Shown here: positions 7,254 to 49,087 of the stretch, one piece after another | Layout: every line of letters starts with the position of its first letter | Numbering within the stretch: the first letter of the stretch is position 1 | DNA from: Sphingomonadaceae bacterium | GTDB taxonomy: Bacteria; Pseudomonadota; Alphaproteobacteria; Sphingomonadales; Sphingomonadaceae | Length of the DNA stretch: 64,000 nt | Assembly (NCBI GenBank): GCA_021732525.1 | Contig: JAKFUU010000018.1 | Coordinates: 1 to 64,000, forward strand | Reading direction: 5' to 3' | Program-made: the position numbers and the translations under genes | Notes under the pieces: model-generated | Told to the model about the DNA's origin: nothing | The model's database searches: none | What the model saw: only the letters and a program-made list of their open reading frames with translations

Positions 7254-7547
7254 ATTTGCGCATGGCCGCCTGCATTCACACGTTAGAGCATCGCGCGAAA
7301 ATATGGGTACCGGTTTTTCGCATCAAGCGATGCGACAACAAATAGACAGAGCGGGCGGTGTGATTCCTATTTCACGTTGTCCGCTCTAAATCCGACTTTC
7401 GCAAAAATATCATAAATTTCCAATAAGGTCGCCTTGCGCAAGTGAGGCGGCCTTGTCGTTTCGGTTGCGAATGTTTAAGGGAAAGCATTGGAATGGTCGG
7501 GTGATTCCGCTGCGGCCTTTATCGATCTATTGGGAAAATGAATCCAC
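7254..7547. other. Intergenic: 105-bp repeat plus hairpin
   Basis: This 294-bp spacer holds a 105-bp repeat (7284-7388) and, at 7424-7453, a hairpin whose arms AAGGTCGCCT and AGGCGGCCTT pair with one wobble. The rest precedes tspO and has no obvious sigma70 promoter. GATTC occurs once more near 7502. Confidence 0.6.
7284..7388 (+). repeat. 105-bp TAG...CTA intergenic element, copy A
   Basis: This is the first of five copies of identical length. Its structure is hairpin 1 (GCATCGCGCGAAAA ... TTTTTCGCATCAAGCGATGC), a short linker GACAACAAATAGA, then hairpin 2 starting AGAGCGGGC and ending GTCCGCTCT. GATTC starts at element position 79, in the apical part of hairpin 2. It lies 30 bp behind the small hypothetical gene. 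Confidence 0.9.
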
Positions 7548-8099
7548 ATGAATCAGCTTGCCTCCGCATCCCAATTGCGCATGTCGCTGCTGCGATGGTC
7601 GTTATTCATTGTGCCTTTGGTGCTGTTTTTAGGCCTTTTTTCGGGCACGATATCGGGGTCGGGCGAAGATAATGCCTGGTTCGCTGAATTGATCAAACCA
7701 GCGGCGCAGCCGCCCGGCTGGTTATTTGGCGTGATATGGCCGATATTATATTTGATGATCGCTTTTGCCTTTGCGATGATTTTAAATGCGCGGGGGGCCA
7801 AGGGCCGCGGACCTGCAATAGCCTTATTTGTGCTGCAACTGCTGTTGAATTTTGCTTGGTCGCCGTTGTTTTTTGGTCAGCATCAGGTGACGAGTGCTTT
7901 CTATCTTATCGTTATTATCCTGATTCTAGCGGTGGCAACGACATTCGCCTTTGGCCGCGTGCGCAAGGCGTCTGCCTGGCTTATGGTGCCGTATCTGGCG
8001 TGGCTGTGCTTTGCCGCGATCCTTAATTTTCAGATTGACCGGCTTAATCCCGATGCAGAAAGTCTTTACGTTCCGGCGGCAAGCGCCCAAATAGGATAA
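7548..8099 (+). CDS. tspO: TspO/MBR family membrane protein
   Basis: TspO (translocator protein) is a five-helix membrane protein that binds porphyrins and, in bacteria, is tied to tetrapyrrole or stress signalling. The 183-aa product has five hydrophobic segments and the family hallmarks WFAELIKPAAQPPGWLFG, LLNFAWSPLFF and AWLMVPYLAWLCFAAILNF. The N-terminal segment before the first helix is about 15 residues. It lies 32 bp upstream of the UbiK-like gene on the same strand. No obvious ribosome binding site precedes the ATG. Confidence 0.93.
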   Translation: MNQLASASQLRMSLLRWSLFIVPLVLFLGLFSGTISGSGEDNAWFAELIKPAAQPPGWLFGVIWPILYLMIAFAFAMILNARGAKGRGPAIALFVLQLLLNFAWSPLFFGQHQVTSAFYLIVIILILAVATTFAFGRVRKASAWLMVPYLAWLCFAAILNFQIDRLNPDAESLYVPAASAQIG

Positions 8100-8131
8100 T
8101 CGCGCCACCCATGGCGCCTAGGAGATTAGGC

Positions 8132-8482
8132 ATGCAAAGCGAAAATCGAATGTTCGACGATCTGGCGAAATTGTTTAACGGCTTGGCCGGCACGGTGGCG
8201 GGTATGGGCCGCGAGGCACAGGACAATGCGCGCGCGCGCGCACGCGAATGGGCAGGCGGGCTGGATTTGGTTAGCCGGGAGGAATTTGATGCGGTCAAGC
8301 AAATGGCGGCCAAAGCCAGAGCGGAAGCCGAATTGTTGACCGAGCGGGTGGAAAAATTGGAAGCGGCGCTCGGCCTTGCCAAAAAACCGGCCGCCAAAAC
8401 AGCGGTCAAACCCACCGCAAAGCCACGAGCGAAAAAGACCGCGCCGAGCGTCTCCAAAAAACCCGCCGCGAAAAAGGCATGA
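8132..8482 (+). CDS. Accessory factor UbiK family / BMFP-type protein
   Basis: The 116-aa product begins MQSENRMFDDLAKLFNGLAG and contains an amphipathic N-terminal helix and a coiled coil (about residues 45-85, REEFDAVKQMAAKARAEAELL). This is the organisation of UbiK/YqiC (BMFP) proteins, which help the Ubi complex in ubiquinone synthesis. The start at 8132 follows AGGAGATTAGGC; the in-frame codon at 8111 lacks a site. The C-terminal 35 residues are a Lys/Ala/Pro tail that could bind nucleic acid or membranes and is not part of the core family. Whether it really serves ubiquinone synthesis here is inferred. Confidence 0.8.
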   Translation: MQSENRMFDDLAKLFNGLAGTVAGMGREAQDNARARAREWAGGLDLVSREEFDAVKQMAAKARAEAELLTERVEKLEAALGLAKKPAAKTAVKPTAKPRAKKTAPSVSKKPAAKKA

Positions 8483-8592
8483 ATAGTTTTCCACAGGGCA
8501 CCCACAGGCTTATTTGCCGAAGCGCATGATCGCGCTTGCGCCGATTTCGGGCGCGATGCACAAGGCGGTCATGATCAATCAACGCCCCCGCC

Positions 8593-9105
8593 ATGCATGA
8601 TTCCGACGAAGATTTCGGCGGCATAGAGCGCGACGAATCGGCACCGATGGATATGCTGGCCGCCTTGTTCGAGGCGCGCGGCTGGTCGTTCGAAACCAAC
8701 AGCGACGAAGAAGTGAGCGCCGAATTTAAGGGCAGCTGGACCAGCTATCAAATTCGTGCGGTGTGGCGCGATGAAGACAACAGCTTGCAGGTTATTGTCT
8801 TGCCCGACGTTACGGTTCCCGATGATAAGCGCAATGATGTCTATCGCGCATTGGGGTTAATCAACGAACAATTATGGATCGGCCATTTCGACATTTGGTC
8901 GAGCAACGGAATTTTGCTGTTTCGGCACGGATCGCTGTTGCCGCCCAGCGGCATGTTGGGCATCGATCAGGCGCAGACGATCATCGATGTTGCGATTGAC
9001 GAATGCGAACGTTTTTATCCCGTATTCCAATTTATCATCTGGGGCGACAAAAGCCCGGAAGATGCCATCGCCAGCGCCTTGGTCGAAACCCACGGCGAGG
9101 CGTGA
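8593..9105 (+). CDS. YbjN domain-containing protein
   Basis: The 170-aa acidic cytosolic protein matches the YbjN/type III secretion chaperone-like fold: MDMLAALFEARGWSFE at the start, an Asp-rich middle, then ALGLINEQLWIGHFDIWSSNG and the C-terminal helix with FYPVFQFIIWGDKSPEDAI. YbjN proteins are a conserved alphaproteobacterial family of unclear function, sometimes linked to motility or stress. In sphingomonads it often neighbours proC. Here proC is 2.7 kb downstream on the other strand. Its stop is separated from a 105-bp repeat by two bases. Confidence 0.85.
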   Translation: MHDSDEDFGGIERDESAPMDMLAALFEARGWSFETNSDEEVSAEFKGSWTSYQIRAVWRDEDNSLQVIVLPDVTVPDDKRNDVYRALGLINEQLWIGHFDIWSSNGILLFRHGSLLPPSGMLGIDQAQTIIDVAIDECERFYPVFQFIIWGDKSPEDAIASALVETHGEA

Positions 9106-9107
9106 AT

Positions 9108-9212
9108 TAGAGCATCGTGCGAAAAAGTGGGAACCGGTTTTTCGCATAAAGTGATGCGACAACAAAGTGATAGAGCGGGCAGCGTGATTCCTATTTAACG
9201 CTGCCTGCTCTA
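9108..9212 (+). repeat. 105-bp TAG...CTA intergenic element, copy B
   Basis: This element fills the whole convergent spacer between ybjN-like and the thioesterase. The terminal CTA (9210-9212) is the TAG stop codon of the minus-strand thioesterase. Hairpin 1 core is CGAAAAAGTGGGAACCGG. GATTC is at 9186-9190, element position 79. Two strong hairpins between convergent genes would work as a bidirectional terminator. Confidence 0.9.
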
Positions 9213-9632
9213 ACCCCCCTGAGCGGATTTAATCAGATAGTGCATTTGTGCGGTGGCGATCGGTTTTTCGGGGTCGCCCTGCCACGCGCGGGCATTGACA
9301 TTGGCCATGCTGCGCCCCATTCGCGCGATCGTGCCGGCGGCATAACTGGTCTGGGGTAAACCGCCGCGCATAAAATCAATCGTGACATTGACCTGACGGA
9401 TCGGCGCATCGCCGTGGCGTGCGATCAAAGCCTGGTGAATTGCGGCAATGGCCGCCATTTCCAGCAAGCCGGAGATAGCGCCGCCATGCAGAAATCCGGG
9501 ACGGCCCTGAATTTTTTGATCAAATGGCATTTCGATGACGGGACCGGTGCCGTCCATATGGCGGACGAACATGCCCAGCGACTGCGCATAAGGTGGCAGC
9601 AGCGCGGTAAGATCATCGCGAAAATGATTCAT
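9210..9632 (-). CDS. PaaI-type hotdog thioesterase
   Basis: This hotdog-fold acyl-CoA thioesterase of 140 aa shows HGGAISGLLEMAAIAAIHQ, where the GG and the downstream acidic residue form the usual PaaI-type active site, followed by TIDFMRGG. The start at 9632 is chosen because GGAAGG lies 9 bases upstream and the ATGA overlaps the stop of the preceding gene. The alternative ATG at 9641 would touch that site. It is translationally coupled to a paralogous hotdog gene, and the pair may form a heteromeric thioesterase (inference). The substrate is unknown. Confidence 0.85.
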   Translation of the reverse strand: MNHFRDDLTALLPPYAQSLGMFVRHMDGTGPVIEMPFDQKIQGRPGFLHGGAISGLLEMAAIAAIHQALIARHGDAPIRQVNVTIDFMRGGLPQTSYAAGTIARMGRSMANVNARAWQGDPEKPIATAQMHYLIKSAQGG

Positions 9633-10096
9633 GATTGCCATCCTTCCAAACGGATGAAGGTTCCGCTGGCATAAGCAAGCGGGTCTTCCAAATCGCCATT
9701 ATGCGCGATCCCCCGGACAAATCCGATCTTGCGGCTAATGTGGTAGCAGATGCCGCGGCCGTAAACCCGTTTGCCGGCGGGGGAGGGGCGGAGATAATCC
9801 AGCCGCAGATCCATCGTGACTTGCGGAACAAAGGCGCCGCGTTTTTGCCAGATCGACATGCTGGTCGCATTATCGAGCAAGCTGATCACCACCGCGGATG
9901 CCATTACACCGGTGCCGGGGTCGCCGACCAAATCATCGCGCCAATCGATCGCTAGTTCGACCCAATCTTCGCCATGCTGGGAATATTCCATATTGAGGAA
10001 GCCGCCGTGGCCAAATTTGCTCATGAAACGATTCACCAGTTCGGGGTCGAAGGGTGTGCCTTCGGTAAAGGTGGAGACCGGGTTTTCTATATCCAT
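9629..10096 (-). CDS. Hotdog-fold thioesterase-like protein
   Basis: The 155-aa PaaI-like hotdog protein starts MDIENPVSTFTEGTPFD. A longer in-frame reading back to 10180 would run into a repeat element and is rejected; AAGGAAAATC supports 10096. The block GTGVMASAVVISLLDNATSM corresponds to the HGG..a.lfD region of PaaI enzymes, with the usual His-Gly-Gly replaced by GVMAS, so catalysis may depend on the acidic LLDNA residue or on its partner subunit. It shares an ATGA overlap with the second hotdog gene. Confidence 0.78.
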   Translation of the reverse strand: MDIENPVSTFTEGTPFDPELVNRFMSKFGHGGFLNMEYSQHGEDWVELAIDWRDDLVGDPGTGVMASAVVISLLDNATSMSIWQKRGAFVPQVTMDLRLDYLRPSPAGKRVYGRGICYHISRKIGFVRGIAHNGDLEDPLAYASGTFIRLEGWQS

Positions 10097-10107
10097 GATT
10101 TTCCTTC

Positions 10108-10252
10108 TAGAGCCTGATGACGTTAAGTCGATTCTCCTCGTCATTGCGAGCGAAGCGCGGCAATCCAGTGTCACCCGCACACAGTTTGGATTGCTTCATC
10201 GCCTCGCTCCTCGCAATGACGCAGTTCATCAATCTAATATCATCAAACTCTA
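10108..10252. repeat. Nested palindromic repeat, composite copy 1
   Basis: Outer ends TAGAGCCTGATGACG and CATCAAACTCTA enclose an inner palindrome with arms CGTCATTGCGAGCGAAGC and CTCGCAATGACG, plus a second paired block GGCAATCCAG and GGATTGCTTC. A second copy with the same outer and inner parts lies at 43641-43780. The distal CTA is the amidase stop codon. GATTC occurs near 10130. Confidence 0.88.
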
Positions 10253-11854
10253 ATCCGCGCCAATGCTGGCGATGTAAGCCGGTGTAACCCGTGCGCGCGA
10301 TGCTTGTTCATAAGCATAGCCCGCTTGCAACACGGCATAATCATGCCAGCGCGCGCCGGTAAAGCTGATGCCAACCGGAAGCCCGCGCAGCGCGCCCATC
10401 GGCACGGTCAAATGCGGCGCACCTGCAATGGCGGCCAGGCTGCTGGCGCTGGGGCCGCTGAAATTGTCGCCTTTGCCCAATGCGGACAGCCAGGTGCGTC
10501 CATTGGTGGGTTGTACCAATAATGTGACATTATGCTGGGTGAGCAGGCGGGCGATGTGTGCATTGGTCCGCTGCGTCATATTTTTGGCCAATATCGCCAG
10601 TTGATCCTGGGTCAATTTTGTGGCCTCGGCGCGGTCAAAACCCGATTGATCGAAATATTGCAATTCGCGCTCGGCATTGGCTTTGTTGAAAGCGATCAAA
10701 TCGGCCAGCATCTTATGCGGCACCAATCCGGCGGGCAGATTTTGCAGATAGGCCGCCATGTCATATTTCAGCTCCCCAAACAGCAAGGTGCCTTCATCCT
10801 CGCCGATGCCGTCCAATCCAGACCGGCTGTCGGCAATATCTATAATTATCGCGCCCGCCGCCGTCATCTGCGTCAATGCCTTTTCAAACAAAACCATCAA
10901 ATCGGCATCATCACCAATGGTATCGCGCAGCACGCCGATACGAACGCCCCTTAATCCATCATCGCGCAAGCCAGCGGCATAATTGCCGCGCCATTTATCC
11001 GCCTCCTGCGTTGCGGGGTCTAAGGGATCGCTTCCCGCCATTGCGGTCAACATAATCGCGGCGTCGCGCACGCTTTTGGTCATGGGGCCGGCGGTATCCT
11101 GCGTATGGCTGATCGGCACAATGTGACGGCGGGAAATCAGCCCGACCGTGGGCTTAAATCCGACAATTCCGTTGATTGAGGATGGGCAGACGATGGAGCC
11201 ATTGGTTTCGGTGCCAATGGTGCCCGCCGCCAGCCCGGCCGCCATCGCCGCGCCGCTGCCCGCCGATGAGCCGCAGGTGTTTCGGTCCAGCGCATGCGGA
11301 TTTTTGGTCAAGCCGCCGATCGCGCTCCATCCGCTGGTCGAATTGTCCGACCGGATATTGGCCCATTCGGACAGATTGGTCTTGCCCAGGATAATCGCCC
11401 CCGCCTCGCGCAATTTTGCCACCAAGGGCGCATCGCGGCCGGTGATATTATCCTTGAGCGCGAGCGACCCTGCCGTGGTGGGCAGCGCGCCTTTGGCTTC
11501 GATATTATCCTTGATAAGGATGGGAATGCCATGCATCGGGCCGCGATATCGCCCCGCCTTGCGCTCCGCATCGGCCGCGCGCGCTTGTTCGATTGCATCG
11601 GGGAATGTGGCGATGACGGCGTTCAGCGCCGGGCCACTGTCATCAATTTCGGCGATCCGCAACAGATAGGCGGTGACGATCGCCTCGCTGCTATATTGGC
11701 CGTTAGCAATGGCATCCGCTAGTTCGGCGAGCGAAAGATGTTCGATATCGGCAATGCGCGCCGCTTCGGTGCTGCCATGCGCGATTGATGGCTGCGCGGC
11801 GGCGGGCGCCGAAATCAGGGCGAAGGCCGCCATCCAGATTGGCCAATTCCTCAT
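10250..11854 (-). CDS. Secreted amidase (amidase signature family)
   Basis: The 534-aa amidase has a signal peptide ending APAAAQ, so it probably acts in the periplasm. The Ser-cisSer-Lys triad is recognisable: Lys in HGIPILIKDNIEAKG, the first Ser in CGSSAGSGAAMAAG, and the nucleophile in GTETNGSIVCPSS. The C-terminal half is typical of secreted amidases annotated as GatA-like, but it is not a tRNA amidotransferase since the gene has a signal peptide and no gatB/C neighbours. Its ATG overlaps the proC stop (ATGA), so it is the last gene of the argH-lysA-proC run. The substrate is unknown. Confidence 0.88.
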   Translation of the reverse strand: MRNWPIWMAAFALISAPAAAQPSIAHGSTEAARIADIEHLSLAELADAIANGQYSSEAIVTAYLLRIAEIDDSGPALNAVIATFPDAIEQARAADAERKAGRYRGPMHGIPILIKDNIEAKGALPTTAGSLALKDNITGRDAPLVAKLREAGAIILGKTNLSEWANIRSDNSTSGWSAIGGLTKNPHALDRNTCGSSAGSGAAMAAGLAAGTIGTETNGSIVCPSSINGIVGFKPTVGLISRRHIVPISHTQDTAGPMTKSVRDAAIMLTAMAGSDPLDPATQEADKWRGNYAAGLRDDGLRGVRIGVLRDTIGDDADLMVLFEKALTQMTAAGAIIIDIADSRSGLDGIGEDEGTLLFGELKYDMAAYLQNLPAGLVPHKMLADLIAFNKANAERELQYFDQSGFDRAEATKLTQDQLAILAKNMTQRTNAHIARLLTQHNVTLLVQPTNGRTWLSALGKGDNFSGPSASSLAAIAGAPHLTVPMGALRGLPVGISFTGARWHDYAVLQAGYAYEQASRARVTPAYIASIGAD

Positions 11855-12672
11855 TCGGCTTCCTTTCCCTGCTCAATGGAGCGATCCCGCGCGGCGCGCA
11901 GGGTGACCGCGATCAGATTGTTCAATGCCTCGTCCCGGTCCAGCATGGCAAGCCCAGCGGCGGTCGACCCGCCCTTGGAGGCGACACGCGCCGCAAGTTC
12001 GCCCGGCGTATCGCTGCTCCGCGCCGCCAGCAGCGCCGCTCCCTCGATCATTTCCCTGGCGAGCCGCGCGGCTGGCACCGGCTCAATGCCCATCTGTTCC
12101 GCCGCCTGCGCCATGGCATCGATAAAGCGGTAGAGATAGGCCGGGCCGCATCCGGCAAGAGCCGTAAACGCATGCATATCCGCCTCCTGCACCAACCAAT
12201 AAGGCGTGCCGAGCGGCGCGAGCCAGCTTTCGGCGGTTCGCTGATCTGCGTCGTCCAAGCCGCGCGCAAACAGGCCCAGGGGGGATTTGCCAAGCGCCAC
12301 CGCCAAATTGGGCATCACCCGCAAGATCCGCGCATCGGGGAAATGCCGCATCAAACTATCGGTAGCGACCCCGCCGAGGATCGAAATAACCAGCGCGCCG
12401 GGCGACAATAACGCCCGGATATCATCCGCCATAGCGGCCAGATTCTGGGGTTTAATCCCGATCAAAATCGTTTCATATTTGCCGGGCACTTGCCCCGCGT
12501 CGCTGAAATACCGCGCGCCGGGGGGCAGATTGCGGTCCGTTGGCTTGACGATATGAAAAGATGCGGCAGGCACGCCCGCCGCCATCCAACCCTGCACCAT
12601 CGCGCCGGCCATATTGCCGCATCCAAACAACAGCATGGGTGAAGGAAAGGGGATGGGCGGACCGCCTGTCAT
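11851..12672 (-). CDS. proC: Pyrroline-5-carboxylate reductase
   Basis: ProC reduces 1-pyrroline-5-carboxylate to proline with NAD(P)H. The 273-aa product shows the Rossmann motif LLFGCGNMAGAMVQGW near residue 14, GIKPQNL, and the C-terminal signature region from about 235 (ASKGGSTAAGLAMLD). Length is normal. The ATG overlaps the upstream siroheme-synthase-like stop (GCATGA), and the gene overlaps the amidase by four bases, so three genes are translationally coupled. Confidence 0.95.
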   Translation of the reverse strand: MTGGPPIPFPSPMLLFGCGNMAGAMVQGWMAAGVPAASFHIVKPTDRNLPPGARYFSDAGQVPGKYETILIGIKPQNLAAMADDIRALLSPGALVISILGGVATDSLMRHFPDARILRVMPNLAVALGKSPLGLFARGLDDADQRTAESWLAPLGTPYWLVQEADMHAFTALAGCGPAYLYRFIDAMAQAAEQMGIEPVPAARLAREMIEGAALLAARSSDTPGELAARVASKGGSTAAGLAMLDRDEALNNLIAVTLRAARDRSIEQGKEAE

Positions 12673-13466: not shown

Positions 13467-13472
13467 CCGCGG

Positions 13473-14735: not shown

Positions 14736-14745
14736 GGAATGCAGG

Positions 14746-15081
14746 CTATTCTTTCGGTAATGCGCTGTTGCTCGATAAGGGGTCGGCGGACTCCTTCGGG
14801 TCGCTATCATCCAATATCGGCTGGGTTCCCGGCGGCAGATCAAATTCGTCATCTTCGCGGCGTTGTGAACGGCGCAGCAATTCGACGCTGCGGCCGGGGC
14901 GGGCCTGCACCGCTGGTTTCAGCAATTGGCTGGGGCTATCTGGTTTTTCCTGACCATAAGCGGCGGTTACGCCCGTTGACCCCGACTCGGGTTGCAGTTC
15001 ACCGATTTTGCCGCATGCGCCAAGCAGCGCCAAAGCGGCCAGCGGCCATAATTTCCGGTTGGTAATTGTATCTTTTTTCAT
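14746..15081 (-). CDS. Small outer-membrane lipoprotein (LptM/YifL-like)
   Basis: The 111-aa product has a basic N-terminus, a hydrophobic stretch and a lipobox (LLGAC, cysteine at residue 23), so it is a diacylglyceryl lipoprotein. The cysteine is followed by GKIGEL, resembling the CGxxGxL start of LptM/YifL-type peptides that assist LPS transport, but the long acidic tail is species-specific. Position between argH and lysA is the usual place for this small lipoprotein. It overlaps argH by 4 bp (ATGA). Confidence 0.78.
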
Positions 15082-17801: not shown

Positions 17802-17818
17802 CGCGTTTATCCTGATTT

Positions 17819-17851: not shown

Positions 17852-17855
17852 AACA

Positions 17856-18254: not shown

Positions 18255-18258
18255 CGAT

Positions 18259-22734: not shown

Positions 22735-22780
22735 TTTTCACGCATCGTCATCCTGGTAAAGGCCGGGGCAAAATTTAAAC

Positions 22781-22870
22781 GTCATCCCGGCGAAAGCCGG
22801 GATCTCTCAAAGTTAAAATACTACAGGGCGGCAATCGCCTTCTAGAGATTCCGGCTTTCGCCGGAATGAC
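22781..22870. repeat. REPIN-like inverted pair, copy 1
   Basis: Two 26-bp arms (left starting GTCATCCCGGCGAAAGCC, right ending TTTCGCCGGAATGAC) pair with two mismatches. Each arm is itself a small hairpin; the left one is CCCGGC-GAAA-GCCGGG with a GNRA tetraloop. The same element recurs at 35986-36066. GATTC occurs in the right arm. Confidence 0.88.
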
Positions 22871-35976: not shown

Positions 35977-35985
35977 CTTTTAAAA

Positions 35986-36066
35986 GTCATCCCGGCGAAA
36001 GCCGGGATCTCTCTCAGTATTATGCTGTTCTGACCAAATGGAGATTCCGGCTTTCGCCGGAATGAC
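35986..36066. repeat. REPIN-like inverted pair, copy 2
   Basis: This copy has the same arms as 22781-22870 (left GTCATCCCGGCGAAAGCC, right TTTCGCCGGAATGAC) with a different, shorter spacer. It splits rpmD from rplO inside the spc operon. Confidence 0.88.
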
Positions 36067-38880: not shown

Positions 38881-38898
38881 ACCCATTGCGCAAAGCAA

Positions 38899-40218
38899 TT
38901 GTTCAATCTTACGCGGAAAAGCGATAGGCCGCATCGCGTGAAATCCTTCGACCAACTCGGCAAGCCAGAGGCTTTGCGCTATATACAGCGGCAACGGGAA
39001 TTGCGGCAAATGCGGATTGTTGCCACGTCGCTGCTGGTCGTTATGGCGATTGTCTTTGTGATCGCAAAATATCTGGAAACCCGCGTCCACATCCATTGGG
39101 GGTTCTTGCGTGCCTTTGCCGAGGCAGGGATGATCGGCGGCCTGGCCGATTGGTTCGCGGTGACCGCGCTGTTCCGTCATCCGCTGGGCATACCCATTCC
39201 GCACACCGCGATTATCCCCAATAACAAGGTTCGTATTGGCGTGACTTTGGCCAATTTTCTGCGCGGTAATTTTTTGACCACGAAGGTTGTGGCCAAGCGA
39301 ATCCGCAAGCTGGATGTGGCGGGCGCGATGGGCCGCTTCCTCGCCAACCCATCGGGCGGCGAGGGGCGTATGCGGTCCGGCGCGTCGCGGTTGATCGGCG
39401 ATATGTTGGCATCGCTCGACGACGAAAGATTGGGCGTTGAAGCGAAAAAGGCGCTGCGCGCGCAGCTTCAAAAGCTCGATATTGCGCCGCTACTCGGTCA
39501 AATGTTGCAGGCCGCGATTAAAGAAGGCCGGCACCGCGCCGTGCTCGATGGGATCATCGGTTGGAGCGCCAAAACGCTCGATGCCAATGAGCATTTGATC
39601 CATAAAATGATCGAAGAACGCGCCAGCACCATCATGCGCTGGACCGGGCTCGACACCCGTCTGGCCGATGCGGTTGTTAAAGGTCTGCATAAAATGCTCG
39701 CTGAAATGGCGGCGGACCCCAAACATCCTTTGCGCGCCAAGGGCGAAGAGGGCCTGGCAAAATTGGCCGCCGACCTGATCAGCGACGAAGAAACCCAGCG
39801 GCGGGTTAACGAATGGAAGATGGAATTGCTCGGCAACCCGGCCATCGGCAAATGGATCGACGGCCTTTGGCAGCAAGGGCGCGAAGGGCTGCTCAAAGCC
39901 GCGCGAAATCCCGATGCAACCATGGCTGGGCAGCTCGGCAACGCGCTGACCAAACTGGGCGGCAGCCTGCAAAGCGACGATAGGTTGAAACGGCAAATTA
40001 ACCGCTTCGCCCGCCGCGCGATTGTGGGCACCACCGAAAATTACGGCGACAATATTGTCAAGCTCGTATCGGACACCATTGAGGGTTGGGATGCGAGCAC
40101 GATCACGGACCGTGTCGAAAATGCCGTGGGCAGCGACTTGCAATTTATTCGGATCAACGGCACGCTGGTCGGCGGCATGGTCGGCTTAATCATCCACAGC
40201 GTTGGGTTGATGATTTAA
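38899..40218 (+). CDS. DUF445 family membrane-anchored protein
   Basis: The product of about 439 aa has one N-terminal hydrophobic helix (LLVVMAIVFVIAKYL), the conserved block GMIGGLADWFAVTALFRHPLGIPIPHTAIIP, and a long helical middle, and ends in another hydrophobic segment (GGMVGLIIHSVGLMI). This is DUF445, found near adk/hypothetical loci and of unknown function. The frame is open from the adk stop codon; the start is uncertain (TTG 38899, GTG 38938 or ATG 39010), none with a good ribosome binding site. Its TAA stop begins a palindrome shared with the convergent msrC stop. Confidence 0.88.
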   Translation: MFNLTRKSDRPHRVKSFDQLGKPEALRYIQRQRELRQMRIVATSLLVVMAIVFVIAKYLETRVHIHWGFLRAFAEAGMIGGLADWFAVTALFRHPLGIPIPHTAIIPNNKVRIGVTLANFLRGNFLTTKVVAKRIRKLDVAGAMGRFLANPSGGEGRMRSGASRLIGDMLASLDDERLGVEAKKALRAQLQKLDIAPLLGQMLQAAIKEGRHRAVLDGIIGWSAKTLDANEHLIHKMIEERASTIMRWTGLDTRLADAVVKGLHKMLAEMAADPKHPLRAKGEEGLAKLAADLISDEETQRRVNEWKMELLGNPAIGKWIDGLWQQGREGLLKAARNPDATMAGQLGNALTKLGGSLQSDDRLKRQINRFARRAIVGTTENYGDNIVKLVSDTIEGWDASTITDRVENAVGSDLQFIRINGTLVGGMVGLIIHSVGLMI

Positions 40219-40265
40219 AGCATCGCGCGAAAAGCCGGTGCCCACTTTTTCGCGCGATGCTCTAA
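40216..40265. repeat. 50-bp TAA...CTA palindrome between convergent genes
   Basis: The palindrome TAAAGCATCGCGCGAAAA ... TTTTCGCGCGATGCTCTA has the same core (CCGGTGCCCACT read on the minus strand) as hairpin 1 of the 105-bp family but in the opposite orientation. Its left end is the DUF445 TAA; its right end (40262-40264) is the TAG of msrC. It is probably a bidirectional terminator. Confidence 0.85.
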
Positions 40266-40759: not shown

Positions 40760-40772
40760 GCCGCCATGATAA

Positions 40773-41174: not shown

Positions 41175-41223
41175 GGAGTAAAATCGGCTCCGTCACGGTG
41201 TGCAAATATGGTCGGTTTCGGGT

Positions 41224-42315: not shown

Positions 42316-42610
42316 GAAATTTCCCTCGAGCAGTATTTGTTTGGGCTTATTCCTGTTAAAATCCTAACATTAGGCCTTCAGGATCGGCAAGCGGTGAATT
42401 TTTTACAATTGCCCCAAAGCGCTGCCAAGCCGCAGGAATGACTCGTTTATGGGCTGTTTGAGCCCTTGCGACTCGTGGAGATTCCTACGTTAATACGAAA
42501 TTAACCTTTCCAGTTCATTTGTCTTATGGTTAATAAACACCGATGTCGCTTTGGCACGAAATTCCAAAGCACTGCCGGTGACATGAAATAAGCATGAAGG
42601 GTTGTTCCAG
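42316..42610. promoter_or_regulatory. ctrA upstream region: three GANTC sites and CtrA box
   Basis: This 295-bp divergent spacer carries GACTC at 42440-42444, GACTC at 42470-42474 and GATTC at 42480-42484. A perfect CtrA recognition sequence TTAA-TACGAAA-TTAAC follows at 42490-42505. In Caulobacter the ctrA promoter is controlled by CcrM methylation of GANTC and by CtrA binding to TTAA-N7-TTAA(C), so autoregulated cell-cycle control is likely. A further half site GGTTAATAAAC lies at 42529. Confidence 0.85.
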
Positions 42611-43318
42611 ATGCGCGTATTATTGATTGAAGACGAGCCAACCACCGCGAAAGCCATCGAAATGATGCTCGCGACGGAAGGCTTCAATGTCTACACAACC
42701 GATCTTGGTGAAGAAGGCCTCGATCTGGGTAAGCTTTATGATTATGATATCATTCTGCTCGATCTCAATCTGCCCGATATGCATGGCTATGACGTTTTGA
42801 AAAAACTGCGCGTTGCCAAGGTGCAAACGCCGGTACTTATCCTTTCGGGCATCTCCGAAATGGATAGCAAAGTCCGCTCCTTTGGATTTGGCGCGGATGA
42901 TTATGTTACCAAACCATTCCACCGCGAAGAGTTGGTCGCACGCATCCACGCCGTTGTGCGCCGTTCAAAGGGCCATTCGCAATCGGTTATTCGCACTGGC
43001 AAGCTTTCGGTAAATCTGGACGCAAAAACGGTCGAAGTTGATGGTAGCCGCGTGCATTTGACGGGCAAGGAATATGCGATGCTCGAACTGCTCAGCCTGC
43101 GCAAAGGCACCACGCTGACCAAGGAAATGTTCCTCAACCATCTCTATGGCGGCATGGACGAGCCCGAACTTAAAATTATTGACGTGTTCATTTGCAAATT
43201 GCGCAAGAAGCTGGCGCTGGCATGCGGCGGAGAAAATTATATCGAAACCGTATGGGGCCGCGGCTATGTTCTGCGCGATATGGAAATGGAGGAAATGTTA
43301 CAGCCCAAAGTGGCTTAG
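42611..43318 (+). CDS. ctrA: Cell-cycle response regulator CtrA
   Basis: CtrA is the master OmpR-type transcription regulator of the alphaproteobacterial cell cycle and motility. The 235-aa product has the receiver Asp51 in LLDLNLPD, Lys in DDYVTKPF, and the near-invariant C-terminal DNA-binding region ([40 protein letters not shown]). MRVLLIEDE at 42611 is the start; the upstream in-frame TTG is not needed. The final TAG is the first triplet of a 105-bp repeat. Confidence 0.97.
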
Positions 43319-43420
43319 AGCGTGATGCGATTAAGTGGGTACCGGTTAATCGCTTAAAATCACGCGATCACAAAGAGATAAAGAGCATGATGCGATTCTA
43401 TCTGATCGCATCATGCTCTA
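43316..43420 (+). repeat. 105-bp TAG...CTA intergenic element, copy G (diverged)
   Basis: This copy has the same length and layout as the other four but is more diverged (core GTGGGTACCGGTTAATCGC). The first TAG is the ctrA stop codon. Hairpin 2 is GAGCATGATGCGA-TTCTATC-TGATCGCATCATGCTC. GATTC starts at 43394, again element position 79. Confidence 0.85.
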
Positions 43421-43777
43421 GAGCGATTTCGAGTGAGGTGGAAACACCGAACGGCTCGGAAATCGCGGAAAACAGGGTTTAAGGTTCCGGCCCGATCAAA
43501 TATAAACTCACCCACCGCAACAGAAGGGGCAGCGCATAACCGCGTTGCCTCTTTTTTTGCGCTGCCGCAAATTATGCTGGCTTGGGAAAATAAGTGCATA
43601 GCGCTGCGCGCTCATGGATTTAGGGCATCGCGCGATGCTTTAGATCCTGATGACGTTAAGTTGGTTCCCCTCGTCATTGCGAGCGAAGCGCGGCAATCCA
43701 GTGTCACCCGCATACAGCCTGGATTGCTTCGTCGCTGCGCGCCTCGCAATGACGGATCAGTCATATGTCATCACGCG
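43319..43777. other. Repeat-rich spacer ctrA / M28 peptidase
   Basis: This 459-bp convergent spacer holds the 105-bp element G, then a GCGATTTCGAG/CTCGGAAATCGC hairpin (43422-43468), a rho-independent terminator (43526-43558) and a nested palindromic composite (43641-43780). I see no coding sequence or RNA gene in it. Confidence 0.7.
43526..43558 (+). terminator. Rho-independent terminator downstream of ctrA
   Basis: A ten-pair stem (GGGGCAGCGC with GCGTTGCCTC-type right arm, two wobbles, six-base loop) is followed directly by seven T. It is the most canonical terminator in the window and probably ends the ctrA transcript 210 bp past its stop codon. Confidence 0.75.
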
Positions 43778-43780
43778 CTA
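43641..43780. repeat. Nested palindromic repeat, composite copy 2
   Basis: Outer ends TAGATCCTGATGACG and GTCATCACGCGCTA enclose the same inner palindrome as 10108-10252 (CGTCATTGCGAGCGAAGCGC ... CTCGCAATGACG). The terminal CTA is the M28 peptidase TAG. A GCATCGCGCGATGC palindrome lies just before it at 43626. Confidence 0.88.
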
Positions 43781-45106
43781 AGGCCGGGGCGGTAGGCCAG
43801 CGAAAGTGATCAGGCTGCCGCCTGAACCCGCTGCGCCCCGCGCGCTGACGCCGACAAAATGATCGTCAACGATAACTCCGGTCAGCGTGTGGGATGTGGC
43901 GGCGGGGTCATCAACCCTGATCACCTGTTGCCAATCTTTCTTATCATTGCGCCGAACATGAATATCGTAACCGGTGGCTCCTTTTACTGGGGTCCAGCGG
44001 ACGATGGTGTCGCTTGAAACCGCTCCGCCCAGCGTTGCTTGCTGCGGCGCGGGCGGTGCATCGGCGAGCGAGCCGACCGTCGCGACATTGAGCATGGTGA
44101 CCTTAGCCAGATAGTTAAAATCCATCTCATCGGCGGTATCCCCGAATTTGCGGCCATTTTCGGTGCGTAAATCTTGATGTTGGTGATCGTAATCTTCGAT
44201 GCCGACGGTAAAACGCACCGCGGGAAAGCCCAACTCCAACGCCGGCAAATGGTCACCGCCCCGGCCAAATCGATCGGGGCGCTGCACGGCGAACACATCC
44301 AGACCAATTTCCGCCTTGCTGGCTCCGCCGACATCTTTGATCCGGCGTGCCAAGGCGCGGCTTGGCCCGTCATCTTCGCCGCCGCTGCCGCGCCGTGCCA
44401 ATTGCGCTTCGATTGTTTCCGAAGCGCGAATACCCTCGCTAAAGACACGCACGATATTGTCCACCTTGCGCCCGTCGGTGCCCCGCGTCCCGCCAACAAT
44501 ATCATTGTTCAATAGCGCGCTGACTTTCCAGCCGCGTTCTTTTGCGGTTTCGGCGAGCAAACGCCCGCCCATCAGGCCTTGTTCCTCACCCGAAAGCAGC
44601 GCGAATATGATCGTCGCTTCCGTCTGCGGAAGCTGCGCGATGATCCGTGCCGCCTCGATGACCAAGGCGCTGCCCGATGCATTGTCGTTGGCACCGGGCG
44701 CATCGCCGGTGAAATTCATAATATCGGTAACCCGGCTATCGATATGGCCGGAGATAATGATAACATGATCAAAACCCATCTTGCCCGCTTTTATCGCCAG
44801 CACATTGACAATGTTAACGCCGTCCGGCGCGCGCGGACCGGACATTCGCCGTTCCAGATTTTCAATCGTCAGACAATTGTTGCAGCTTTTTGAAATGCTT
44901 TCAAATTCCGCTGCGGCCCAGCGCCGGGCCGCGCCGATTCCGCGTTTGGGGTCTTCGGCGGAAGATAGCGTATGCCGAGTGCCAAAGCTGACCAGCTTTT
45001 CGACATAGCCTTGCAATCGCTGCGGGTTTGCTTGCTGCTGTGCGGCGGCGGGCGCTGCGGTGAGAAGGGACGCAAACAGGGTTATTAATAGCGGGAATTT
45101 ATGCAT
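43778..45106 (-). CDS. M28 family zinc aminopeptidase, secreted, with C-terminal Fn3-like domain
   Basis: The 442-aa exported co-catalytic zinc peptidase has a signal peptide ending AAPAAA. Zinc ligands and the catalytic Glu are visible in order: SGHIDSR, GANDNASGSA, SGEEQGLMGG, NNDIVGG and DHQHQD. From about residue 350 an Fn3-like beta domain follows (WTPVKGATGYDIHVRRND). Upstream neighbour is a phosphatase gene 17 bp away. Substrate preference cannot be read. Confidence 0.9.
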   Translation of the reverse strand: MHKFPLLITLFASLLTAAPAAAQQQANPQRLQGYVEKLVSFGTRHTLSSAEDPKRGIGAARRWAAAEFESISKSCNNCLTIENLERRMSGPRAPDGVNIVNVLAIKAGKMGFDHVIIISGHIDSRVTDIMNFTGDAPGANDNASGSALVIEAARIIAQLPQTEATIIFALLSGEEQGLMGGRLLAETAKERGWKVSALLNNDIVGGTRGTDGRKVDNIVRVFSEGIRASETIEAQLARRGSGGEDDGPSRALARRIKDVGGASKAEIGLDVFAVQRPDRFGRGGDHLPALELGFPAVRFTVGIEDYDHQHQDLRTENGRKFGDTADEMDFNYLAKVTMLNVATVGSLADAPPAPQQATLGGAVSSDTIVRWTPVKGATGYDIHVRRNDKKDWQQVIRVDDPAATSHTLTGVIVDDHFVGVSARGAAGSGGSLITFAGLPPRP

Positions 45107-45123
45107 ATACTTTTGCTATCATA

Positions 45124-45888
45124 TCAACTTTGCAAATACCAGCGTTCGCCGCTCTCCAATCCAATCGCGGTTAACTTGCCGCTGTTGTAAGCGCCGGTAT
45201 CGATCCCGATGCGCGATCCGCTTTCGTTAACCTGGTCAAAAATCGTATGACCGAAAATAACGACCTTTTCCAAATCGCCGCGATGATCCAGAAATTCGCG
45301 GCGGATCCAGCGCAGGTCTTTGGCTTTTTGTTCGGCCAATGGCACGCCGGGGCGGATACCGGCGTGGACGAACAGATAATCGCCCATCACAATTTGATCT
45401 TCAAAGCTTTCCAGAAAGGCAACATGTTCCTGCGGAATATATTCAGGTAGCCGTGCGGCCAATTGTTCCATGTCCAATTTCAAATATTCGGCGCGCGGTA
45501 TCGGATAGGATAAAATAGTGCTTTCGCCGCCAATCCGGATAAAGAAGCGCAATGTTTCGGGATCCCTGCTTTTGATCGCATCAAGAAACACCTCTTCATG
45601 GTTGCCGCACAGAAACCGAGTGCTGGGCCGCTGTTTCTTTAGTGCTAATGCCGTATCGATCACTCCTGCACTGTCAAAGCCGCGATCAATCAAGTCGCCC
45701 AAAAAGATAATCTGCGTATCCGCCGGTCCGCGATCTGCATCATCGGCCGATATCATCTGCAATAGCCGCTTCAGCAAATCGTTGCAGCCATGCACATCGC
45801 CAATCGCATAGATTCGGTGTCCGGCGGGAACCCTTGCGGTATCAATTGGAGAAGGACTCGGCTTTTTTCTGAAAAAACCGGCCAGCAT
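45124..45888 (-). CDS. Calcineurin-like metallophosphoesterase (PrpA/ApaH-like)
   Basis: The 254-aa product has YAIGDVHGCNDLL, IFLGDLIDRGFDSAGVID, LCGNHEE and FGHTIFD, the four metal/phosphate motifs of the Ser/Thr phosphatase-diadenosine tetraphosphatase superfamily. The start at 45888 follows AGGAG; the longer frame to 45987 translates a 105-bp repeat and is rejected. Ends with a Trp-Tyr-Leu tail. A serine/threonine phosphatase role is more likely than ApaH by length, but this is not certain. Confidence 0.88.
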   Translation of the reverse strand: MLAGFFRKKPSPSPIDTARVPAGHRIYAIGDVHGCNDLLKRLLQMISADDADRGPADTQIIFLGDLIDRGFDSAGVIDTALALKKQRPSTRFLCGNHEEVFLDAIKSRDPETLRFFIRIGGESTILSYPIPRAEYLKLDMEQLAARLPEYIPQEHVAFLESFEDQIVMGDYLFVHAGIRPGVPLAEQKAKDLRWIRREFLDHRGDLEKVVIFGHTIFDQVNESGSRIGIDTGAYNSGKLTAIGLESGERWYLQS

Positions 45889-45902
45889 GATAACGCTTCT
45901 CC

Positions 45903-46007
45903 TAAAGCATCGTGCGAAAAAGTGGGCACCGGTTTTTCGCATAAAGCGATGCGACAACACATAGATAGAGCGGGCAGTGTGATTCATATTTCACGCAGCG
46001 CGCTCTA
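45903..46007 (+). repeat. 105-bp TAG...CTA-type element, copy C
   Basis: This element begins TAAAGCATCG and ends GCTCTA. Hairpin 1 core is AAAAAGTGGGCACCGG. GATTC starts at 45981, element position 79. It fills most of the gap between the saccharopine-dehydrogenase-like stop and the phosphatase start. Confidence 0.88.
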
Positions 46008-46028
46008 AAGGTTTGTTGGTGCCGCGTC

Positions 46029-47192
46029 CTAACTTTCCACCGTAAATGTCAATCCTGCGTTGGCCTCCAGCCTACGGACCAAATCAGCGCCTAAAGCCGA
46101 TGCCGGGGTCCATATGCCGCCTGGTGTATCGCTGGATAGCAGCGCAATGCCGGTTTCGGCGATCATCTTGCTAGTCGAGCCATAGCCGGGGTCTTTGTCG
46201 CCTTTTACCGACAGCATCGCCATTTGGCCGTCGGGATATTCGGCGATAAATAGCGCGTCGTAAAATCCATTGTCGCGCTCTTCCTTGCTTGGGCCATCGC
46301 CGGGTTTCGGATCGCTGTCACCGCCCATCATTGGGGTGCTCGCCATATGCTTGGCAATCGCCTCGCCTTTGTCGCCGGGGCCGGTGAAAACCATCTCATC
46401 ATAGACAAAATTGGTGCCATAGGCGTGACCCAGCAGCGCGTTTGAACGGTGGACATTTTTGGTGTTGATCGGGGCCATGATAAAGGGTGCGCACCAGCTA
46501 TTGAGCTTTTCGTCAAAGATCGGCTTGTTGCCTGCGGGTTGTTCCGGCCCTTCAAACCCGCCCGCCAGGCTGAAAGGGTTCATCAGATAGGCGATGATAT
46601 TTTTATCTGCGGCGGCGGCGGCCATGGTCGCTTTCAAGCTGGCTGCGGTGCCGCCCGACGCCGCGCCTTTCATCGCGCGCATCCGGCCTTTGATTCGCGG
46701 CGCAGGTTTCCCAAATTTCTCGCCGCAATGTTGCTGCAACATAAAGACGCCCAGATCAAAGGGGATCGAATCGAAACCCGCCGAAAACACAATGCGCGCG
46801 CCCGACGCCTTGGCGGCCTCTTCATGTTCATCGATCTTCTGCCGCATCCAGGCGGGTTCGCCCGATAGATCGGTATAGTCGGTGCCATTTTTGATGCAGG
46901 AGGCCAGCAGCTCATTGCCATAAAGCTGATAAGGGCCAACGGTGGTGATGATCACCCGCGCGCGCGCCGTCATCGCATCAAGCGACGCCGGGTCGGCGGC
47001 ATCGGCGACGATCAAAGGCGTGCCGGTCGGCGCGCCAATTTCATCGCGCACCGCCGTTAGCTTATCCAGACTGCGTCCCGCCATCGCCCATGTTGGCGCG
47101 TCTTTGCGGCCACACAAATATTCTGCGACCAAACGCCCGGTAAATCCAGTTGCACCATATACGATAATATCAAATTCGCGGGGGCCGCTCAT
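46029..47192 (-). CDS. Saccharopine dehydrogenase-like NAD(P)-binding protein
   Basis: The 387-aa product begins MSGPREFDIIVYGATGFTGRLVAE with a Rossmann GATGFTG motif and continues with the GPYQLYGNELLASCIKNGTDYTDLSGE block of the saccharopine-dehydrogenase/trans-acting enoyl reductase family. The start at 47192 is chosen because GGAGA is six bases upstream; the ATG at 47198 would abut it. It is not a lysine-pathway enzyme by context; membrane lipid or glycolipid metabolism is possible (inference). Confidence 0.85.
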   Translation of the reverse strand: MSGPREFDIIVYGATGFTGRLVAEYLCGRKDAPTWAMAGRSLDKLTAVRDEIGAPTGTPLIVADAADPASLDAMTARARVIITTVGPYQLYGNELLASCIKNGTDYTDLSGEPAWMRQKIDEHEEAAKASGARIVFSAGFDSIPFDLGVFMLQQHCGEKFGKPAPRIKGRMRAMKGAASGGTAASLKATMAAAAADKNIIAYLMNPFSLAGGFEGPEQPAGNKPIFDEKLNSWCAPFIMAPINTKNVHRSNALLGHAYGTNFVYDEMVFTGPGDKGEAIAKHMASTPMMGGDSDPKPGDGPSKEERDNGFYDALFIAEYPDGQMAMLSVKGDKDPGYGSTSKMIAETGIALLSSDTPGGIWTPASALGADLVRRLEANAGLTFTVES

Positions 47193-47234
47193 CGTCATTC
47201 TCCAAATTGGGTTGCCATGGCAAACAGCTTTGGA

Positions 47235-47789
47235 TCAAAGCTTGGGAAGAGTCACGCCTTTCTGCCGCATATATTTGCCCGAACGGTCGGCATAGCTGGT
47301 CTCACAAGGCTCGTTGCCTTTCAGGAATAGGAATTGGCAGGCCCCTTCGTTGGCATAGATTTTCGCGGGCAACGGTGTGGTGTTGGAAAATTCCAGCGTC
47401 ACATGCCCCTCCCATTCGGGTTCCAGCGGGGTGACATTGACGATAATGCCGCAGCGCGCATAGGTTGATTTACCCAGGCAAATGACGAGAACATCTCTGG
47501 GAATACGGAAATATTCGACCGTGCGGGCGAGCGCAAAGCTGTTGGGCGGGATGATGCAGCAATCGGTTTTGCGGTCGACAAAGCTGTTCGGATCAAATTC
47601 TTTGGGATCGACAATCGCGCTATTCACATTGGTGAAGATTTTGAACTCGTCGGATACCCGCGCGTCATAGCCATAGGAGGATAGGCCATAGCTGATACAG
47701 CCTTCGCGTTTCTGCGCTTCGACAAAGGGTTCGATCATACGGCTATTGCGCGCTTCGTTGCGGATCCACCGGTCGGATAAAATTGGCAT
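47235..47789 (-). CDS. dcd: dCTP deaminase
   Basis: Dcd converts dCTP to dUTP for dTMP synthesis. The 184-aa protein has [17 protein letters not shown], the catalytic region [24 protein letters not shown], and GKSTYARCG. Length is canonical. It pairs functionally with the cytidine deaminase gene 10 bp upstream. Confidence 0.97.
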
Positions 47790-47799
47790 GAATATGGTT

Positions 47800-48240
47800 C
47801 TACTCTAGGTTCGCCGGGCCAAAGGCATGCGGCAATAATTCGGATAGCAAATAAGTCACATGGCCCTTTGCGTGGACACAATGCACCGGAATGTCCAACG
47901 CGTTCAGATCGGCGACCTCTTTCAAAATCTGCCGGCACCGTCCGCAAGGCGTGATCGGATCCACGCCAATATCGGGTGACATATCGAATTTGGCCGGGCC
48001 GCCCGCGATGGCAATGGCGGTGATTTGGTTCAATTGCCCATCGCTATTCGCTTTCGCAATGGCGACCGTTTCGGCGCATAATGTCATGCCAAAGCTGGCA
48101 TTTTCAAAATTGGCTCCGGTGACAATTTGGCCGCTGTCCAATTGCAGCGCTGCACCAACGTGATAACCCGAATAGGGCGCATAGGCATTTTTCGCCGCAT
48201 CTTTGGCCGCCTTGATCAGCCGGGGCAGGTTGCCGCTCAA
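47800..48240 (-). CDS. cdd: Cytidine deaminase
   Basis: The 146-aa tetrameric type Cdd has zinc ligands LCAETVAI and TPCGRCRQ (three cysteines) and the start region [13 protein letters not shown]. The start appears to be TTG in a TTGA overlap with the GH25-like gene, since no ATG or GTG lies nearby in frame. It forms a pyrimidine-salvage pair with dcd. Confidence 0.93.
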
Positions 48241-48932
48241 TTGCGCACCACGGCCCAGCGCACCGGGCCTTTAACGCCGTCAATATGCCGCGCGCTATTG
48301 GCGGTCCATATGACCCAGGGCCGGGCGGAATAATTGGGCAGAAACCAATTGCTTTCGAGCCATATGTTTCGGTCAATCGATTTGCTCACCTGATATTCCT
48401 GTTCAAATTCCGAATCGAGCATCAACACGGCGGGCACGCCCATATGCACTTCGATTTTGCTCAAGAAAGTCGAAATTTCGGACAATATCAACCCCCGATT
48501 GGGCCGCCCCTTGCAAGTATCAGTAAAATCCAGTTGAACGGCGGGCGGAAGCGCGCTGTTGCTGCGCGGCACCGTGGTTATGAAAAAATCTGCTTGATCG
48601 GAAGCCAGCCGGCAAAGATCAAAATGATGCAGAGCGCCGACACGGATGCCAGCTTGCATCGCGCCTGCGGCATTGGATTGAAAAGTTTGGTCGCGTAGCC
48701 GCGTCCCCGCTGTTGCGGTTAGATAAGCAAAATCCACGCCGGTTGCACCCAATGTCGACCAATTTGGATTGCTATTTTCTTGATTTAGAACAATGCCCTG
48801 AACCTCATAGCTGCTGCGCGGTGGAGCCCAGGCGGCGGCATAGTTCCAAATTACAAATAGGCACAATAGCGCGGCGATGATGATCGCCATAAGGCGTATA
48901 TTGACGTTAAATTTGCCGGTCATGCTCCGCAT
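48237..48932 (-). CDS. GH25-fold muramidase-like protein, catalytic residues lost
   Basis: The 231-aa product has one N-terminal membrane helix (LMAIIIAALLCLFVIWNYA). It aligns with sphingomonad GH25 lysozymes along its length (GVDFAYLTATAG, IRVGALHHFDLCR, ITTVPRSNSALPPAVQLDF, KGRPNR). Each catalytic site is altered: family GIDVS reads GIVLN, KATEG reads TATAG, PPAVDLE reads PPAVQLD, and GPVDLN reads GPVRWA. Probably a noncatalytic murein-binding or remnant protein. Start 48932 has GGGGAATA upstream; longer frames enter a repeat. Coupled to cdd. Confidence 0.75.
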   Translation of the reverse strand: MRSMTGKFNVNIRLMAIIIAALLCLFVIWNYAAAWAPPRSSYEVQGIVLNQENSNPNWSTLGATGVDFAYLTATAGTRLRDQTFQSNAAGAMQAGIRVGALHHFDLCRLASDQADFFITTVPRSNSALPPAVQLDFTDTCKGRPNRGLILSEISTFLSKIEVHMGVPAVLMLDSEFEQEYQVSKSIDRNIWLESNWFLPNYSARPWVIWTANSARHIDGVKGPVRWAVVRN

Positions 48933-48982
48933 TATTCCCCAAAATTGCCCGCTTGCGAATCGCCAAATCGGCTTTGAACGCT

Positions 48983-49087
48983 TAGAGCATCGCGCGAAAA
49001 AGTGGGCACCGGTTTTTCGCTTAAAGCGATGCGACAACAAACAGATAGAGCGGGCAGTGTGATTCCTATTTCACGCTGCCTGCTCTA
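48983..49087 (+). repeat. 105-bp TAG...CTA intergenic element, copy D
   Basis: This element begins TAGAGCATCGCGCG and ends GCTGCCTGCTCTA. GATTC starts at 49061, element position 79. The terminal CTA (49085-49087) is the TAG stop of the UPF0262 gene. Confidence 0.9.

Follow-up and report, generated by a model that had tools for sequence, protein, structure and literature searches.

Five copies of a 105-bp repeat lie within a 64,000-bp stretch of DNA (here termed the window) from contig JAKFUU010000018.1 of Sphingomonadaceae bacterium (assembly GCA_021732525.1), and each copy carries the pentanucleotide GATTC at the same internal position. What are these repeats, and what accounts for their uniformity? 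The original prediction was that fixed length, fixed GATTC and a common strand mark an element linked to methylation or folding, rather than drifting repetitive extragenic palindromic (REP) sequences. The comparisons described below point, with a probability of about 0.9, to a non-autonomous mobile element, i.e., a miniature inverted-repeat transposable element (MITE), of the CIR/RIME/Bru-RS type, which targets YTAR sites, preserves the stop codons that it enters and is presumably moved in trans. The copies and associated features are as follows (ORF, open reading frame):

7284..7388, plus strand: CIR-type element, subfamily 1, 105 bp, flanks T-TA...TA-A
7362..7366, plus strand: GATTC at the stem/loop junction of hairpin B (predicted fold)
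9108..9212, plus strand: element, subfamily 1, 105 bp, flanks T-TA...TA-A
9186..9190, plus strand: GATTC at the stem/loop junction of hairpin B (predicted fold)
9210..9212, minus strand: stop codon TAG formed by the last 3 bases of the element, ending thioesterase ORF 9210-9641
40193..40264, minus strand: related solo-hairpin short form, ends TAGAGC...GCTTTA (first 49 bp of the match)
43316..43420, plus strand: element, subfamily 2 ("copy G"), 105 bp, flanks T-TA...TA-G
43316..43318, plus strand: stop codon TAG formed by the first 3 bases of the element, ending response-regulator ORF 42602-43318
43394..43398, plus strand: GATTC at the top of hairpin B (predicted fold; subfamily 2 copy)
45903..46007, plus strand: element, subfamily 1, 105 bp, flanks C-TA...TA-A
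45981..45985, plus strand: GATTC at the stem/loop junction of hairpin B (predicted fold)
48983..49087, plus strand: element, subfamily 1, top-scoring copy, 105 bp, flanks T-TA...TA-G
49061..49065, plus strand: GATTC at the stem/loop junction of hairpin B (predicted fold)
49085..49087, minus strand: stop codon TAG formed by the last 3 bases of the element, ending ORF 49085-49567 (NF002769, PRK02853 family)

For all five copies, the coordinates, the length of exactly 105 bp, the TA(A/G)...CTA ends, the GATTC at positions 79-83 and the two predicted hairpins were as originally described, and an ungapped alignment unites the copies in one family. Folded as DNA, every copy outperforms all 200 of its dinucleotide shuffles (z -4.4 to -9.0). 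The predicted fold (of RNA or single-stranded DNA) comprises hairpin A (approximately positions 5-50) and hairpin B (approximately positions 64-105), with GATTC at the junction of the 5' arm of hairpin B and its loop. The 64-kb window gave no match to Rfam RNA families at the gathering score.

A model built from the five window copies (R1) was used to scan the draft genome of the host (3.01 Mb, 68 contigs), and at least 81 matches were recovered among the best 150 of 676 candidates, the copy numbers from the genome scans being lower bounds because part of the candidates was scored. Sixty-one matches, with scores of at least 79 bits, are full-length copies; the remaining 20 score lower, being partial, tandem, solo-hairpin or degraded forms, and do not enter the 61-copy counts, and 12 full-length copies with a degraded TA end were further removed for the 49-copy counts. 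The length is 105 bp in 52 of the full-length copies, 104 bp in six, and 100, 106 and 107 bp in one each. The 105-bp copies form two subfamilies of 44 and 8 members, with mean pairwise distances of 0.12 and 0.08, respectively. Since the copy at 43316 belongs to the second, its divergence, previously taken as a sign that the retained length and GATTC are under selection, is explained by the existence of another multi-copy subfamily (8/52). The common strand is likewise a property of the window (5/5 copies) that does not extend to the genome, where 34 full-length copies lie on the plus and 27 on the minus strand (binomial p 0.44) without clustering of strands by contig (permutation p 0.23); strand bias was therefore rejected. 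The claim of a fixed length holds for 52 of the 61 copies but is explicable by a recent burst of transposition alone, and near-fixed length fits copies of one mobile element. As in MITEs, the repeat is short (105 bp), is bounded by a terminal inverted repeat (TAGAGC...GCTCTA) and has no transposase of its own. Among 24 genomes of the same genus, a single weak match was found in each of 4 and none in 20; this comparison shows many copies in the host genome and next to none in its congeners.

The bases flanking the repeats indicate how they were inserted. Among copies with both TA ends, Y precedes and R follows in 42 of 49 cases in the host genome and in 48 of 57 in other genomes, compared with a background of 249 Y-TA-R sites among the 1970 TA sites of the window. 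Outside the host genome, counts of targets, frames and clusters refer to those 92 of 107 loci that are 100-109 bp long and come from 38 genomes; the 107 loci were read from order, class and genus matches (48, plus 59 of 60 further regions, with the cut-off L276 omitted). For the host genome, Y-TA-R insertion with TA duplication is thus indicated by the flanks, and in Rhizobium filled sites can be compared directly with empty ones. The Rhizobium junctions were read by eye from the sequence letters, because the MAFFT alignment misplaced one flank. The filled site of Rhizobium leguminosarum OyaliB (L307) has the sequence ...GATGCG-C-TA-element-TA-G-AGCTTGACC, while its empty counterparts read ...GATGCG-T-TA-A-AGCTTGACC in strains 22B and WSM1455 and ...GACACG-T-TA-A-AGCTTGACC in TP60; the comparison of L307 with L308, L309 and L310 gives one TA in the empty and two in the filled state. 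The second locus is filled in R. beringeri TP24 and R. leguminosarum Gr 12/7 (L322, L323) and empty in R. ruizarguesonis TA1 and R. leguminosarum BT01 (L320, L321; ...GGAG-C-TA-R-GCTCCGG), with two TA in filled and one in empty sites. At both loci this TA is part of the stop codon of a minus-strand gene, encoding a pyridoxamine 5'-phosphate oxidase family protein at the L307 locus and a phosphotriesterase at the L322/L323 locus, and the length of the gene is unchanged by the insertion; the last 19 residues of the protein encoded at the former locus are identical in L307, L308 and L309. The flanks of L181, L184 and L306 revealed no evident empty site among the matches listed. In the host genome, contigs C39 (L158) and C52 (L154) share near-identical segments, and C52 has an additional TA-flanked segment of 183 bp, which starts with TAGAGC at T-TA-G.

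The coincidence with stop codons is also apparent in the window, where three of the five copies (9108, 43316 and 48983) provide a neighbouring gene with its stop codon. A search of the frames next to the copy at 7284..7388 found no stop codon supplied by the element, and the copy at 45903..46007 is separated by 21 bp from the stop codon of minus-strand ORF 46029-47198. Orthologues of the response regulator stop at the same residue in 25 of 32 cases, and those of ORF 49085-49567 in 18 of 21; since they mostly end there, the element most likely entered a native stop codon at 43316 and 48983. Throughout the host genome, 30 of the 61 copies supply a stop codon by either end (18 left, 13 right; one end gives TGA). 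Frames 0, 1 and 2 are open for at least 100 codons into the TAR of the element at 30, 3 and 2 of 109 junctions in the host genome, and at 62, 25 and 13 of 143 junctions in other genomes, where chance open frames are longer, which accounts for the higher off-frame counts; as the flanks read were 700 or 1500 bases, open-frame lengths have an upper limit. Non-coding YTAR insertions fall at called stop codons in 17 of 40 cases, compared with 100 of 620 background sites (p 7e-5; genes called with a custom caller, in a 394-kb pool that surrounds and includes the copies). Ten full-length plasmid copies come with depositors' annotations (L181-L183, L303-L307, L316 and L317; L315, L322 and L323, the same insertions in other strains, were not counted): in four of them an annotated gene and the element share exactly 3 bp, and in six there is no overlap. 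A high frequency at stop codons is expected if TA insertion into TAR stops is nearly neutral and most other insertions are not, and a true target preference for stop codons is possible. No report of such a niche for CIR, RIME or Bru-RS was found in the portions of the literature searched, including by searches for "stop codon".

The mechanism that we envisage is as follows. A transposase acting in trans, of the kind that duplicates TA at YTAR (possibly of the IS5/IS427 type, by analogy with IS711), would move the element. Insertion into a native stop codon preserves the end of the reading frame, because a stop codon is formed anew, either by TA together with the first base of the element or, on the opposite strand, by its last three bases. 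The frequency of stop-codon insertions would reflect the purging of insertions elsewhere by purifying selection, possibly combined with a degree of target preference, and, once inserted, the element would provide the upstream gene with a strong hairpin directly after its stop codon. The GANTC of the loop would be a frequent inherited motif that could be methylated by CcrM and is unnecessary for spread. More tentatively, and with the odds somewhat against it, this may be a class-wide alphaproteobacterial element with stop-codon ends, which would spare the encoded protein when inserting at YTAR in a stop codon, for which host stop codons would be the preferred niche and which would install structured, often CcrM-methylatable 3' ends.

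The conservation of the fold was assessed in relatives from other genomes. Judged by one window protein, the closest named relatives of the host belong to Sphingopyxis, Sphingorhabdus and further Sphingomonadales, with identities of 57-72% in that group. A wider model of the repeat (R3; 18 rows, two hairpins, GATTC in 12 rows) was applied to genomes of the order and class, with the best 13 candidates per genome scored; both the model and the class-level sample are biased toward GATTC and toward the modelled fold. Matches at E <= 1e-5 were found in 41 of the 296 genomes searched in the order and in 26 of the 289 searched in the class (the host genome is counted in both), with a patchy distribution of from one to at least 13 per genome. 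The named relatives that match R3 include Rhizobium, Sinorhizobium, Sphingobium, Rhizorhabdus, Asticcacaulis and Ochrobactrum plasmids, and across the Alphaproteobacteria the repeats are mostly 102-106 bp long, with the same fold and TA ends. In an alignment of 94 matches from other genomes and plasmids, changes on both sides were observed in all 35 pairs (774 cells), compared with an average of 220 cells in shuffles, of which 0/500 was as high; this alignment was fitted to the fold. Its rows come from 93 sources, one giving a second, weak match; 15 of the 48 loci (partial copies or copies with degraded ends), L255 and L274 were omitted, and L165, L181 and L182 were included. A MAFFT alignment of the 18 model rows gave covariation in 19 of 35 pairs (53 cells), above all 500 shuffles. 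The fold has thus been preserved, although the sequence has diverged widely except at the ends, in the GTGG..ACCGG loop and in the linker. The proposal that the repeats are folding-linked, and more than plain REP drift, is backed by this covariation. Overall, comparison shows that the element consists of two covarying hairpins and a connecting linker, that its ends are of the form TAR...YTA, and that it inserts at Y-TA-R with duplication of TA.

Strong covarying hairpins would also suit a functional RNA element, selected as a terminator or stabilizer of the mRNA 3' ends of convergent genes, with mobility as a secondary property. The stem begins at or near a stop codon, and 17 of 49 pre-insertion sites are convergent. 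For comparison, convergent arrangements in the window make up 7 of the 69 pairs of neighbouring genes and 1620 of the 7572 bases between genes. We nevertheless consider this explanation unlikely, as the near-absence of the element from same-genus genomes argues that no site needs it, and covariation is equally expected if the fold serves mobility.

A second alternative holds that selection maintains the GANTC at position 79 as a site at which CcrM methylation sets the timing of transposition or of local gene expression, in the way that Dam methylation times Tn10 transposition. GATTC is intact in 47 of the 52 105-bp copies (40/44 in subfamily 1 and 7/8 in subfamily 2), and in the window GANTC is depleted (84 sites, compared with 243 expected from base composition), yet 5 of these 84 sites fall in the elements. 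At the class level, 6 of 20 clusters have GANTC in the hairpin-B loop of most of their copies, compared with a shuffle mean of 0.76 and maximum of 4 (the shuffle control used one member per cluster, the observed count majorities), and all five Rhizobium plasmid copies inspected have GAATC or GACTC. The N of the loop GANTC varies (T, A or C), which, in an enriched motif, is suggestive of a role in methylation. Of 16 genomes searched for CcrM-like RAMA genes, 14 gave a match, including those of the host and of bacteria with GANTC-free subfamilies; the two without a match, G514 (92% complete) and G425 (81% complete), carry elements with GATTC. In a control search of 14 genomes, a match was obtained in Caulobacter only.

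Several observations count against this alternative. The GATTC described as locked is intact in all five window copies, but in 47 of 52 genome-wide (losses include GATTT, GTTTC and GATCC), and other pentamers are kept equally well: within subfamily 1 the pentamer at position 79 ranks 10th (tied) of 101 by intact copies and 26th by mean conservation. Within the host genome GATTC is therefore not better preserved than the other segments of this young repeat, and the expectation that it would be more conserved than its flanking bases was not borne out. In the class alignment, column 80 (the methylated A) is not better conserved than column 81 (N), and at column 80 A is less frequent than T (6.9 and 8.9, respectively, of 21 weighted genomes). 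Multi-copy subfamilies elsewhere carry GTTTC, GCGTC or GATCC/GATCA instead of GANTC in genomes with CcrM-like genes, GCGTC being present in most sphingomonad relatives, and GANTC is absent from the loop in two Asticcacaulis copies, one Ochrobactrum copy and one Sinorhizobium copy. Moreover, a model with GATTC in 12 of 18 rows favours matches that contain it. Selection for a methylation-timed element is thus improbable; of the methylation link itself, which is weakly supported, the class-level enrichment in the loop stands, while the unremarkable conservation of the A and the GANTC-free subfamilies speak against it. From these comparisons, loop GANTC appears common, and commoner than chance, yet not required.

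Another potential route of spread is that of REP sequences and bacterial interspersed mosaic elements (BIMEs), for which a RAYT, i.e., a Y1 tyrosine transposase, is responsible. In favour of it are the small palindromic units and the occurrence of both tandem A-A-B and solo-hairpin forms. The tandem forms (C1:216-381, C3:127267-127494 and C8:91969-92135) have the 62-bp first module repeated once (C1, C8) or twice (C3), and on C3 the right half of the last copy is unlike hairpin B. The solo-hairpin forms, of approximately 49 bp and with similar TA ends (C12:17098-17147, C1:198282-198345, C6:24111-24190, C39:12597-12645 and window 40193-40264), look as though a single arm could move alone. The duplication of TA at YTAR, which is not expected from single-strand Y1 transposition, makes this route very improbable.

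Although we favour a MITE moved in trans, a number of observations weigh against this view or limit it. No autonomous element with matching ends was found in a search of three transposase families (PF13358, PF01609 and PF13340), and the IS5-family copies of the host, in a draft assembly that is broken at such repeats, have other ends (GGTCACC, GGCTCAGG and GGTAGTG). An ordinary DDE transposon does not require hairpin covariation, which may thus point to another mechanism or to a function at the RNA level. Mobility is deduced from comparison, no transposition event having been observed, and the clean empty sites come from Rhizobium, not from the host genome; L304 compared with its relatives, and Sphingobium L182 compared with indel-rich Sphingobium plasmids, gave no clean junction. 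At the second Rhizobium locus the C-terminal residue of the phosphotriesterase is Gly in the filled and Ala in the empty strains, so that "silent" insertion refers to protein length. The excess at stop codons could be the result of selection alone, given that 5 of 49 pre-insertion sites lie within called genes, compared with 1033 of 1653 YTAR sites (custom caller). Finally, a hairpin adjoining a stop codon may affect expression, by analogy with Escherichia coli, in which REPs or hairpins within 15 nt of the stop codon can stall ribosomes (PMC5082802).

The relationship with insertion sequences (IS) deserves separate mention. An IS5-family insertion sequence is located at the ends of contigs C1, C10, C13, C16, C21 and C66, and its terminus GGTCACCGACTC was read on C1, C10, C13, C16 and C66; around the IS5-family genes of the host genome, no terminal repeats matching the element were found. 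On C1, the IS5-family end abuts the tandem copy C1:216 exactly at the TA end of the element, which is the same kind of association as that of Bru-RS with IS711. An IS seemingly carrying the element at its end in another genome (G404) was rejected, as the contigs break inside near-identical copies.

By anatomy, the five repeats are of the CIR kind, a known kind that, judging from the comparisons above, is clearly mobile. They are filed there because of their size of approximately 110 bp, two inverted repeats with a linker, loop GANTC (47/52) and intergenic location (5/49 sites in genes). Two copies from Asticcacaulis, a member of the Caulobacteraceae, match R3. The Rhizobium-specific intergenic mosaic elements (RIME), said to have been described by Osteras in 1995, are reportedly Rhizobium repeats that contain two palindromes in approximately 108 bp; relatives of the present element that are full-length, at 106 bp, occur on Rhizobium and Sinorhizobium plasmids, a likeness by description. 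CIR sequences (Chen & Shapiro 2003) are described, in a 2007 review, as approximately 110-bp repeats of Caulobacter, Brucella and others, built of two arms and a linker; a GANTC is exposed at or in the terminal loop of one arm, the repeats are not found inside genes, and the review states that their mobility mechanism needs more information (PMC2229807). This confirms the original statement that GANTC-bearing intergenic repeats have been reported in Caulobacter and other alphaproteobacteria. The element shares size, two inverted repeats with a linker, loop GANTC, intergenic location and alphaproteobacterial hosts with CIR1-CIR4, compared here by description only; it differs from the CIR description available in that part of the family is without GANTC, and YTAR target, TA duplication and stop-codon insertion are shown for its relatives. 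Bru-RS1 and Bru-RS2 of Brucella (Halling & Bricker 1994) are palindromic sequences, 103 and 106 bp long, with an association with IS711, an insertion sequence that has YTAR as its target and duplicates the TA (PMC10800456, PMC2266754). They resemble the present element in palindromic length and IS5-family association, a likeness by description and not by Brucella sequences; a Brucellaceae copy on an Ochrobactrum plasmid matches R3 but has GATTT in the loop, not GANTC. Among other short, repeated, mostly intergenic inverted repeats are RUP, which also has TA target sites (PMC2229807), and the ERIC and Correia MITEs (PMC10969869); the excerpts available mention no stop-codon niche for them, and repeats other than CIR are described as lacking arms and linker (PMC2229807).

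The window contains two further repeats: one of 114 bp at 10108-10221 and 43641-43754 (90% identical, core CGTCATTGCGAGCGAAGC), and a REP-like one of 40 bp, TCATCCCGGCGAAAGCCGGGATC, at 22774-22813 and 35979-36018. A phage origin of the 25-38 kb region was rejected, since nine of ten proteins have no PHROGs hit and the tenth is elongation-factor-like.

The clean empty sites found in relatives, together with the YTAR/TA rule that these relatives follow, show that repeats of CIR build transpose. GANTC, the original reason why CIR repeats were noticed, proves frequent but dispensable. Because each repeat offers two ready YTAR ends, a YTAR-specific IS, such as IS711, may land at such repeats, as the single case at C1:216 suggests. 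Ends that rebuild the stop codon they interrupt also offer a simple account of why such a short element is able to reach high copy numbers in a compact genome.

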